Source: Actinocrinis puniceicyclus
Lineage (GTDB): Bacteria; Actinomycetota; Actinomycetes; Streptomycetales; Catenulisporaceae
Assembly: GCF_018283645.1 (NCBI RefSeq)
Contig: NZ_JAGSXH010000043.1
Location: forward strand, 1-46,861
Direction: 5' to 3'
DNA: 46,861 bases
Under the pieces are notes generated by a model, which saw only the letters and a program-made list of their open reading frames with translations, made no database searches and had not been told where the DNA came from. Shown here piece after piece: positions 2,231-7,559 of this stretch (within the stretch, counting starts at the first letter, position 1; each line of letters starts with the position of its first letter). Both the position numbers and the translations under genes were made by a program.

Positions 2231-3466
2231 TCAAGGGGTGGCGACGGCGGGCAGGATCCGGCCGGTGACCTCGCCGAGGCCGAGGCGGATGCCGCCTGGC
2301 CCGGGTGCGGTGGCGCTGATCGAGACCTCGTCGCCGTCCTCGAGGAAGGCGCGGCCGGCGCCGTCGGCGAGCTTGACCGGGTCCTGCCCGTTCCAGGTGT
2401 ACTCGATCATCGAGCCGACCGACTCGCGCTCGGGCCCGCTCACCGTGCCGGAGGCGAAGAGGTCGCCGGTGCGCAGGCTCGCTCCGTTCGAGGTCATGTG
2501 CGCCAACTGCTGCGCCGCGGTCCAGTACATGGAGGCGAACGGCGGCCGGGTGAGCACCTGGCCGTTGAGCCGGACCTCCAGTTCGAGGTCCAGCCCCCAG
2601 GGCTCGGCGTCGCGGTCGTCGAGGTACGGCAGCGGTTCGACATCGCGCACCGGGGGCCGCACCCGAGCGTGCTGCAGGGCGTCGAGCGGCACGATCCACG
2701 GCGAGAGCGAGGTCGCGAAGGATTTGCCGAGGAACGGCCCGAGCGGCACGTACTCCCACGCCTGGAGGTCGCGCGCGGACCAGTCGTCGACGAGGCAGAC
2801 GCCGAAGACGTGCTCGCCGAAGGCGGACAGCGGCACCGGCACTCCGAGCGGCGAGGGCGCCCCGACGACGAAGCCGACCTCGGCCTCGAAGTCCAGCCGC
2901 CGGCACGGGCCGAATCCGGGTGCCGACGCGTCAGGGGCCTTGCTCTGGCCCACCGGCCGGGTGACCGGCGTGCCGGAGACCACGAGCGTGCCGCTGCGGC
3001 CGTGGTAGCCGATCGGCAGGTGTTTCCAGTTCGGGGTCAGCGGCGGCGAACCGGGGCGGAACATGCCTCCGATGTTGGACGCGTGGTGCTCGGAGGCGTA
3101 GAAGTCCACGTAGTCGGCCGGTTCGAAGGGCAGGTGCAGCGTGACGCCGGCCAGCGGCGCCAGGTGCGGCTCGACCAGCGCGCGATGCGCGGGCTCGGTG
3201 AGCCAGGAGGTGATCGCGGCGCGCGCGGAGAGCCACACCGGCCGGCCGCCGGCCATCAGGGGGTTGAGCGTGGGCGCTTCGAGCAGCGTGGAGGGCGCGC
3301 CCAGGGCGCGCGCGACCGCGGCGACATCGAGCACGTATTCGCCGATCCGCACGCCGATGCGCCGCCGTTCGGGGCGTTCCGCCGTGGTGAAGACGCCGTA
3401 GGGCAGGTTGTGCACGCCGAAGGGCGAATCATCCGGTACACCGTCAACCCAAGTCAGAGTATTCAC
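2231..3466 (-). CDS. fahA: fumarylacetoacetase
   Basis: Hydrolyses fumarylacetoacetate to fumarate and acetoacetate, the last step of tyrosine/homogentisate breakdown. The 411-residue length fits the family. Typical blocks are visible: YDFYASEHHASNIGGMFRP-like segment near residues 119-138, WKHLPIGYHGRSGT, LDFEAEVGFVVG and FGVCLVDDWSARDLQAWEYV. These supply the metal ligands (E/D) and catalytic His of the fold. The start is GTG, and the gene overlaps the preceding unrecognised gene by 23 bases, so it is part of the hpd-hmgA operon. The aromatic-cluster context makes the assignment secure. Confidence 0.95.
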   Translation of the reverse strand: MNTLTWVDGVPDDSPFGVHNLPYGVFTTAERPERRRIGVRIGEYVLDVAAVARALGAPSTLLEAPTLNPLMAGGRPVWLSARAAITSWLTEPAHRALVEPHLAPLAGVTLHLPFEPADYVDFYASEHHASNIGGMFRPGSPPLTPNWKHLPIGYHGRSGTLVVSGTPVTRPVGQSKAPDASAPGFGPCRRLDFEAEVGFVVGAPSPLGVPVPLSAFGEHVFGVCLVDDWSARDLQAWEYVPLGPFLGKSFATSLSPWIVPLDALQHARVRPPVRDVEPLPYLDDRDAEPWGLDLELEVRLNGQVLTRPPFASMYWTAAQQLAHMTSNGASLRTGDLFASGTVSGPERESVGSMIEYTWNGQDPVKLADGAGRAFLEDGDEVSISATAPGPGGIRLGLGEVTGRILPAVATP

Positions 3467-4469
3467 GTGCCCTCCCGGTATCGGCTTCGGGGACGACCAG
3501 GCCGAGCCTGGTCAGGTCGGCCAGCGGTTCGGCGATGCTGCACGTGCCGTACGCGGTGAACGCGGTGCGCACCCGGATCACGGCGTCCGGGCTCAGGCCG
3601 CGCAGGGTCTCGGCCAGCCGCCCGGCCGACCGCTCGGCGAGCACGTCCGCGACCGCGGCCACGTCGGCGCCCTGGCACGCCGCGTGCGTCGCGGCCAGGA
3701 TGTTGAGGAAGCCGTGGTGCTCGAAGCCGGTGGCCGGGTCGGTGTGCCGGGCCGCCTCGTGCAGTCCCGCGGTGCACTTGAAGGCCACGCCGCGCACGAC
3801 GCAGCCGACGATGAAGCAGGCCACCTCCTGCTCGGTAGGGAAGGCCGCCGCGACCGGGCCGCCGGTGCGCAGCTTCGCGCGGGCGGCGCTTTCGGCGACC
3901 ACGTCGAGCGCTTCGCCCAGGTCGGGACCGCGCCGCACCTCGATCACCGCGCCGGCCGGATCCGGCAGTCGCCCGGCGAGCGCCGCGACGGCGCGGCGAG
4001 CGGCCTGCGCGGCGGCGGCGTCCGCGTCGCAGGCCAGTTCCACGCCGACGAGTTCGATCCCTGCTTCACGGGCGGGGCCGGCGGCGCGCAGCGCGTCCGT
4101 CAACGCGCCCGGTCCGTCCGGCACCACCAGCACGGTCGGCAGCGGCTCGGGCGGCGCCTGCGCGGCGAGCGGGCCGGCGGCGTGCAGTGCGCGCATCTCC
4201 TCGATCACCGCGGGCAGGTGCTTGGCCGCGGCGAGGAACGGCCCGACCAGGTCGCGGTACCAGGCGACGCGGTGGCCGCGATGCGCGGACACCGCGTCGG
4301 CGGCGCCGGCGTTGCCCGGCGGGAACATCGCCGCGTCGTCGCAGAGCCCTGTGAACAGCGGCGGTATTCCGTGCGCCGGGGCGGCCGCGGACGGCGCCGG
4401 CGCGAACGGCCGCCGAGTCCGGATCGCCGCGGCCGAGCCGTGCGGGCCGCGCCCGGCCGGCCGGCTCAC
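3444..4469 (-). CDS. unrecognised conserved protein inside the homogentisate operon
   Basis: A 341-residue soluble protein that I cannot assign to a named family. It has no signal peptide or membrane segment. Conserved-looking blocks are PPLFTGLCDDAAMFPPGNA near residue 50, HRVAWYRDLVGPF, and VAFKCTAGLHEAARHTD followed by GFEHHGFLN near residues 240-265, where Lys, Cys, His and Glu are concentrated and could form an active site. Its GTG start overlaps the hmgA stop (GTGA), and its end overlaps fahA. Translation is therefore locked between enzymes for steps on either side of maleylacetoacetate isomerisation. The missing isomerase is the obvious inferred role. The first ~40 residues are low complexity, so the true start could be further in. 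Confidence 0.8.
   Translation of the reverse strand: MSRPAGRGPHGSAAAIRTRRPFAPAPSAAAPAHGIPPLFTGLCDDAAMFPPGNAGAADAVSAHRGHRVAWYRDLVGPFLAAAKHLPAVIEEMRALHAAGPLAAQAPPEPLPTVLVVPDGPGALTDALRAAGPAREAGIELVGVELACDADAAAAQAARRAVAALAGRLPDPAGAVIEVRRGPDLGEALDVVAESAARAKLRTGGPVAAAFPTEQEVACFIVGCVVRGVAFKCTAGLHEAARHTDPATGFEHHGFLNILAATHAACQGADVAAVADVLAERSAGRLAETLRGLSPDAVIRVRTAFTAYGTCSIAEPLADLTRLGLVVPEADTGRAREYSDLG

Positions 4470-5694: not shown

Positions 5695-7559
<1,865 letters not shown>

Follow-up and report, generated by a model that had tools for sequence, protein, structure and literature searches.

The homogentisate pathway is textbook biochemistry, and its isomerase is defined by a glutathione-dependent enzyme that bacteria lacking glutathione cannot use. 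That enzyme, the zeta-class glutathione S-transferase (GST) maleylacetoacetate isomerase (MaiA, HmgC or GSTZ1; TIGR01262), has its place between homogentisate 1,2-dioxygenase (HGD) and fumarylacetoacetase (FahA). For an analogous cis-trans step, in the gentisate pathway, glutathione-less actinobacteria employ a maleylpyruvate isomerase with mycothiol as its thiol cofactor. Here we analyze an open reading frame (ORF) of Actinocrinis puniceicyclus that precedes fahA in a stretch of 46,861 nucleotides (contig NZ_JAGSXH010000043.1, hereafter the window; assembly of 6.77 Mb, completeness 98.85%). The account that explains the data best, and that we regard as probable, is that its product is a maleylacetoacetate isomerase that operates by lysine iminium chemistry and is free of a thiol cofactor. 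The candidate shares with the zeta-class enzyme the proposed reaction and the position in the pathway, but it has no sequence similarity to it that we could find, adopts a predicted (beta/alpha)8 barrel in place of the GST fold, is proposed to be glutathione-free and is found where TIGR01262 is absent. Unlike the maleylpyruvate isomerase, which belongs to a different pathway and depends on its thiol, it has no match to the corresponding Pfam family.

The initial annotation had assumed a host that lacks glutathione and uses mycothiol, and this premise holds for the window's genome: profile searches returned no match to glutathione synthetase (TIGR01380) and none to TIGR01262, together with a strong match to the mycothiol enzyme MshA (645.6 bits). 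Among 21 FahA-bearing actinobacterial genomes (20 over the FahA cut-off plus G138 below it), TIGR01262 exceeded its cut-off in none, with G178 giving weak matches. TIGR01380, the sole glutathione route covered, was likewise over the cut-off in none of the 21 (weak matches in seven), and MshA was over the cut-off in 12 and reached E <= 1e-40 in 19. Profile identification of the genes around the ORF gives the operon order 4-hydroxyphenylpyruvate dioxygenase (HPPD), HGD, candidate ORF and FahA, then a PaaI thioesterase and PaaK, with no maleylacetoacetate isomerase gene of the glutathione type, as the initial annotation had noticed. Its description of the ORF as overlapping both neighbors is likewise accurate (4 nt with the dioxygenase gene, 23 nt with fahA; Table 1), and a Shine-Dalgarno-like GGGAGGG lies within the ORF just 5' of the fahA start, at 3476-3470. 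Because the same gene order recurs across the class, the arrangement exceeds chance.

An alignment of the family (A1), scanned against 84,980 species genomes, yielded at least 592 stretches with the pattern, at least 550 of which were confirmed, and linkage was counted on the best 80. fahA adjoins the ORF on the same strand in 72 of these 80 relatives, lies near it in two more and is not in the locus in six; all six genomes behind those loci nevertheless hold FahA. A dioxygenase gene adjoins in 69 of the 80 (38 on the same strand, 31 on the opposite one), stands further off in one and is lacking in 10. Co-occurrence was also counted at the genome level. When 246 genomes of the class were sampled, with FahA called at E <= 1e-60, the family was present in 81 and FahA in 133; 74 genomes had both, seven the family alone and 59 FahA alone (Fisher p 5.6e-18), and in 70 of the 81 the family gene immediately preceded a same-strand fahA, at a median gap of 23 nt. 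In a phylum sample of 198 genomes, the family was found in 10 of the 20 genomes with FahA over the cut-off and in none of the other 178 (p 9.1e-12; the count of 10 leaves out one 20-bit match, in G158). These p-values overstate independence, the genomes being related. Of 60 genomes of the order, 13 gave a match at E <= 0.001, that of G006 being weak; all 10 genomes of group g2 match, and the weak match of G006 is the one match among the 45 of group g4 (inferred to be Streptomyces). An absence from most actinomycete homogentisate clusters, which the initial annotation had named as the observation that would speak against its proposal, is therefore not what this neighborhood survey found, given the 70 of 81 copies directly upstream of fahA; the family is also missing at some homogentisate clusters and so is not universal. 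Five Kitasatospora and Streptomyces copies lie away from fahA in genomes that hold FahA, and no ORF-adjacent gene is common to all five: three share their flanks with one another and the other two do likewise, as close relatives do.

The family is also present outside Actinomycetota. It occurs in 24 plasmid records, from Streptomyces, Pseudonocardia, Rhodococcus, Tsukamurella, Nonomuraea, Priestia and Kovacikia. In Priestia aryabhattai p-LAD4 (Bacillota) the genes run hppD, ORF, fahA, hisC, dioxygenase and amino acid permease, and all six Priestia records have fahA annotated under the match; in the cyanobacterium Kovacikia minuta, fahA comes after the ORF, and HPPD and HGD are nearby. A metagenome-assembled genome labeled Spirochaetaceae (L082) carries a relative whose HGD, FahA and HPPD are 64-65% identical to those of the window, and this genome is perhaps mis-binned. 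As to published work, Rhodococcus ruber Chol-4 grows on homogentisate, and in its report a figure legend gives the cluster as hmgR, hmgA and hmgB, with no isomerase, and the text as hmgABC (PMC6498646). At the R. ruber NBRC 15591 locus from the scan (L063), HGD, the candidate ORF and fahA are consecutive. Proteomes of R. globerulus are reported to contain HmgA and HmgB, detection of HmgC going unmentioned in the accessible passages (PMC11889516). In the literature covered, which was in part open to us and mostly excludes subscription journals, we found no description of the family or of a glutathione-independent maleylacetoacetate isomerase.

Sequence searches leave the protein without a known family, consistent with its being called unrecognized in the initial annotation. 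The window protein matches no Pfam family at E <= 1, gives nothing in NCBIfam except a chance match to HspR (E 0.22), TIGR01262 included, and returns chance matches only from the PDB in both single-sequence and profile searches. When 43 family members were searched at E <= 0.1, six Pfam families were matched, the mycothiol-dependent maleylpyruvate isomerase not among them, as were five NCBIfam families, TIGR01262 not among them; neither the window protein nor the 43 members matched deoC in either database. Annotated relatives carry the product name "hypothetical protein." Pfam CbiZ was matched by four of the 43 members (best E 2.5e-6), and a rescan of 10 of the 43, which included none of these four, did not locate the source of the match. 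CbiZ is not known to be a barrel enzyme, and we treat the match as presumably due to chance.

Alignment of 99 relatives revealed a set of nearly invariant residues. E144, E177, R201, K231, T233, G235, L236, G253, G308 and P315 are present in all 99, D44, K199, H237, H252, N256, R301 and C310 in 98, and R241 in 97. The initial annotation had singled out a Lys/Cys/His/Glu-rich segment, FKCTAGLHEAARHTD, and this choice was right in part: K231, T233, G235, L236, H237 and, mostly, R241 are conserved, but the cysteine of the segment (C232) is not. The conserved cysteine of the family, C310, lies outside it.

The two predicted models, of the window protein (model 1, 14 sequences, pLDDT 88.3) and of the distant relative L025 (model 2, 34 sequences, pLDDT 93.9), are both eight-stranded (beta/alpha)8 barrels by secondary structure. 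Upon VIA re-alignment, deoxyribose-phosphate aldolase (DERA, or DeoC) and designs on its scaffold fill rows 1-22 for model 1 (Z 12.7-14.5, root-mean-square deviation 3.2-4.2, 196-233 aligned) and rows 1-46 for model 2 (Z 13.8-15.9, root-mean-square deviation 2.7-3.8, 188-222 aligned), some of the top DERA rows being designed variants; for both models, other barrels rank below the DERA rows. Foldseek by itself gives a mixed list of barrels for both models, so that the assignment to DERA depends on the re-alignment by VIA. From these models, a barrel of the DERA type is very likely. Model 1 places E144 on strand 4, E177 on strand 5, K199 and R201 on strand 6, K231 on strand 7 and C310 just after strand 8, and model 2 likewise has the two lysines on strands 6 and 7. 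DERA has Lys167 and Lys201 on its strands 6 and 7. The best local HHalign alignment to DERA sets the two lysines of the family in register with Lys167 and Lys201 of the Escherichia coli enzyme, at a nonsignificant E of 0.043 and a probability of 1.2%. According to one study, Lys167 is the Schiff-base residue of E. coli DERA, assisted by Asp102 and Lys201, and Lys167 and Cys47 become cross-linked by crotonaldehyde (PMC8403123); PDB titles further indicate that re-engineered DERA catalyzes Michael additions via a Schiff base. The likeness to DERA, as modeled, would consist of the closest fold in two independent models, the paired lysines of strands 6 and 7 and an acidic residue on strand 4. In contrast, the family has no significant sequence similarity to DERA, has other invariant residues (E177, R201, H237, H252 and C310) and belongs to a different pathway, presumably with a different substrate. 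Retro-aldol cleavage of deoxyribose-5-phosphate is unlikely because of the linkage to fahA.

We also asked which copies keep the proposed active site, using the 84 copies from all 81 family-bearing genomes of the class. The full set of K199, K231 and C310 is preserved in 68 of 71 fahA-linked copies, in three of six unlinked copies with FahA elsewhere in the genome and in one of seven copies in genomes without FahA (linked against FahA-less, p 2.2e-6). The sole intact copy in a FahA-less genome (G270) is next to HGD and close to the end of its contig. Of the three linked exceptions, G426 is taken up below; the genome of G354b has a second copy, beside HGD, in which the three residues are intact, and G461b is a partial match in a genome that also holds an intact linked copy. 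With FahA present the site is thus retained, and without FahA it tends to disappear, as expected if the substrate belongs to the homogentisate pathway.

Divergent copies were seen in addition. In two genomes of one genus, in neither of which FahA was detected, full-length copies (L205 and L207; genomes G399 and G344) have arginine at all three of K199, K231 and C310, and these proteins perhaps have a new role. A second copy in the window's own genome (G000:C379:26809-27528; L133:6768-7655, minus strand; E 5.9e-18), on another contig and away from fahA, is strongly diverged and has lost nearly all the conserved residues.

Because FahA is kept, the zeta-class enzyme is missing and the gene precedes fahA, isomerization is likely to be the natural job of the protein. 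The initial annotation had called the ORF the best local candidate for this step, and linkage, co-occurrence, the absence of the zeta-class enzyme and residue loss without FahA support that choice well; from these we infer the function itself. Paired lysines as in DERA point to activation of the enone as an iminium, and we put this chemistry forward tentatively, at somewhat less than even probability. In such a scheme, the host bacteria would degrade tyrosine by the homogentisate route without the zeta-class enzyme, and the ORF product would fill the isomerase step and require no low-molecular-weight thiol. K199 on strand 6, with a pKa adjusted by the strand 7 residue K231, would react with that keto group of maleylacetoacetate which is in conjugation with the cis double bond, giving an iminium. 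A nucleophile in the active site, C310 being the likeliest, would add reversibly to this double bond, the resulting C2-C3 single bond would rotate, and elimination and hydrolysis would release fumarylacetoacetate, the substrate for FahA. E144, E177, R201, H237, R241 and H252 may bind the carboxylates and move protons. By analogy, the crotonaldehyde cross-link and the engineered Michael additions mean that both halves of the proposed chemistry have been seen in DERA.

Several observations weigh against the proposal of an isomerase with lysine chemistry. The family is lacking in 59 of the 133 FahA-positive genomes of the class, and the 21 that belong to group g4 are all among these 59. We examined 20 such loci; 12 have a dioxygenase gene in the locus, in some cases as a plain HPPD-HGD-FahA run. 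No recurrent replacement gene was detected beside fahA at these 20 loci and at further ones, by crude G+C-frame gene calls that can miss genes. The search included a Pfam scan of 20 neighboring proteins; IclR and TetR regulators, a CoA transferase, a methyltransferase-like protein, a prenyl synthetase and RecQ were encountered, none recurrently. Since no recurrent replacement was found, either another isomerase is encoded elsewhere in these genomes or the step is non-enzymatic there. On a tree of fumarylacetoacetases (80 rows) the presence/absence label changes 17 times, with at least eight changes forced by well-supported branches, and by this phylogenetic measure the family appears to have been gained and lost many times. 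Two fahA-linked copies depart from the proposed site. G426 carries K231R, and L028:1486-2412 (G115), located between HGD and fahA, carries K199A, H237D and C310R and is the source of the exceptions at these positions among the 99 relatives; the latter is either inactive or of different chemistry. The fold is a prediction from models built on 14 and 34 sequences, and no mode of profile comparison gave a significant match to DERA (probability 0.5%, or the 1.2% of HHalign). Finally, cyanobacteria make glutathione, and the family, being present in one of them, is not confined to glutathione-less hosts.

How far do other explanations account for these data? The initial annotation had left open a mycothiol-dependent enzyme. 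One form of this idea, an isomerase whose barrel binds mycothiol or bacillithiol and lets the thiol add across the double bond, in the manner of glutathione in the zeta-class enzyme, agrees with the MshA match over the cut-off and the missing GshB match in the window's genome, with the MshA counts in the FahA genomes (12 of 21 over the cut-off, 19 of 21 at E <= 1e-40), and with the mycothiol dependence of the analogous maleylpyruvate step in Rhodococcus, as stated in PMC6498646. We nevertheless judge it improbable: neither the Pfam family of the mycothiol-dependent isomerase nor any other Pfam family was matched, and the invariant internal cysteine would make an external thiol unnecessary. Moreover, the family stands beside fahA in Priestia and in a cyanobacterium, and neither Priestia nor cyanobacteria are known to make mycothiol. 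It is because the family precedes fahA in such lineages, and because both the fold and the conserved lysines point to lysine chemistry, that we favor the cofactor-free option of the initial annotation over the mycothiol-dependent one. A carbon-carbon lyase or a hydrolase that splits maleylacetoacetate straight into maleate and acetoacetate, or a protein that clears a toxic by-product beside the isomerase step, would fit the nearest fold, an aldolase with two active-site lysines, and the existence of FahA genomes that do without the gene. It is about as doubtful as the thiol-dependent enzyme, however, as FahA, needless for a bypass, is kept alongside in nearly every case, and a repair role leaves the absence of the zeta-class isomerase from 21 of 21 genomes unexplained.

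Very tight linkage, the overlaps and the loss of the gene in some lineages would also suit a protein without catalytic activity that partners FahA or the dioxygenase and acts in stability, channeling or regulation. This is highly unlikely, for the polar and charged residues at the barrel strand ends are invariant in 98-99 of 99 relatives and lost in FahA-less genomes, and so resemble a catalytic site. Lastly, isomerization might be mostly spontaneous or thiol-assisted, with the protein merely accelerating a non-essential step. Many FahA genomes have neither enzyme, and a title cited in PMC11457941 describes a glutathione-dependent non-enzymatic bypass in isomerase-deficient mice; yet retention beside fahA across phyla and the conservation of residues show selection, and the argument addresses the need for an enzyme, not its activity. 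We consider it unlikely. The preferred reading thus remains a cofactor-free isomerase. Its broadest form, a new family of cis-trans isomerases on a class I aldolase barrel that combine a lysine iminium with an internal cysteine and replace the glutathione-dependent isomerase in Actinomycetota, Bacillota and at least one cyanobacterium, is offered as a possibility of roughly one in three.

The features of the locus are collected in Table 1. The window's dioxygenase scores far under the TIGR01015 cut-off (64.7 against 510.75 bits) and, because of this, automatic annotation may overlook a divergent HGD of this kind. A palindrome, ACCGAACGTTCGGT, lies at 2175-2188, between fahA and the PaaI and PaaK genes, and presumably fits a TetR-type phenylacetate-repressor site; its single match, against 0.39 expected by chance, is not significant alone.

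Table 1. Features of the homogentisate locus in the window (positions in window coordinates)
Feature	Position	Strand	Basis or remark
Candidate maleylacetoacetate isomerase ORF	3444..4469	minus	341 aa, GTG start, conserved from ~residue 36
K199 codon, strand 6, motif K-x-R-T/C-G-G, proposed Schiff-base lysine	3873..3875	minus	98/99 homologues; position computed from ORF
K231 codon, strand 7, motif F-K-x-T-A-G-L-H, proposed second active-site lysine	3777..3779	minus	99/99 homologues
C310 codon, just after strand 8, motif G-[ST]-C-S, proposed nucleophile	3540..3542	minus	98/99 homologues
4-nt GTGA overlap, dioxygenase stop and ORF start	4466..4469	minus	sequence
23-nt overlap, ORF 3' end and fahA GTG start at 3466	3444..3466	minus	sequence
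fahA, fumarylacetoacetase	2231..3466	minus	TIGR01266, 454.1 bits
Homogentisate 1,2-dioxygenase, divergent type, 398 aa	4466..5662	minus	Pfam HgmA_N and HgmA_C over cut-off
4-Hydroxyphenylpyruvate dioxygenase (HPPD)	5695..6897	minus	TIGR01263, 433.7 bits
Lrp/AsnC-type regulator, upstream of and divergent from the operon	7029..7559	plus	Pfam PF01037, PF13404

For bacteria that run the homogentisate pathway without glutathione, these data turn the gap at the isomerase step into one that is directly testable, with a named candidate family (at least 550 confirmed stretches), a predicted active site and related genomes that naturally contain or lack the family. If the lysine-iminium proposal is true, the family would represent a new route for enone isomerization without a thiol cofactor, and its mechanism would be the natural counterpart of the conjugate-addition chemistry that has been engineered into DERA.

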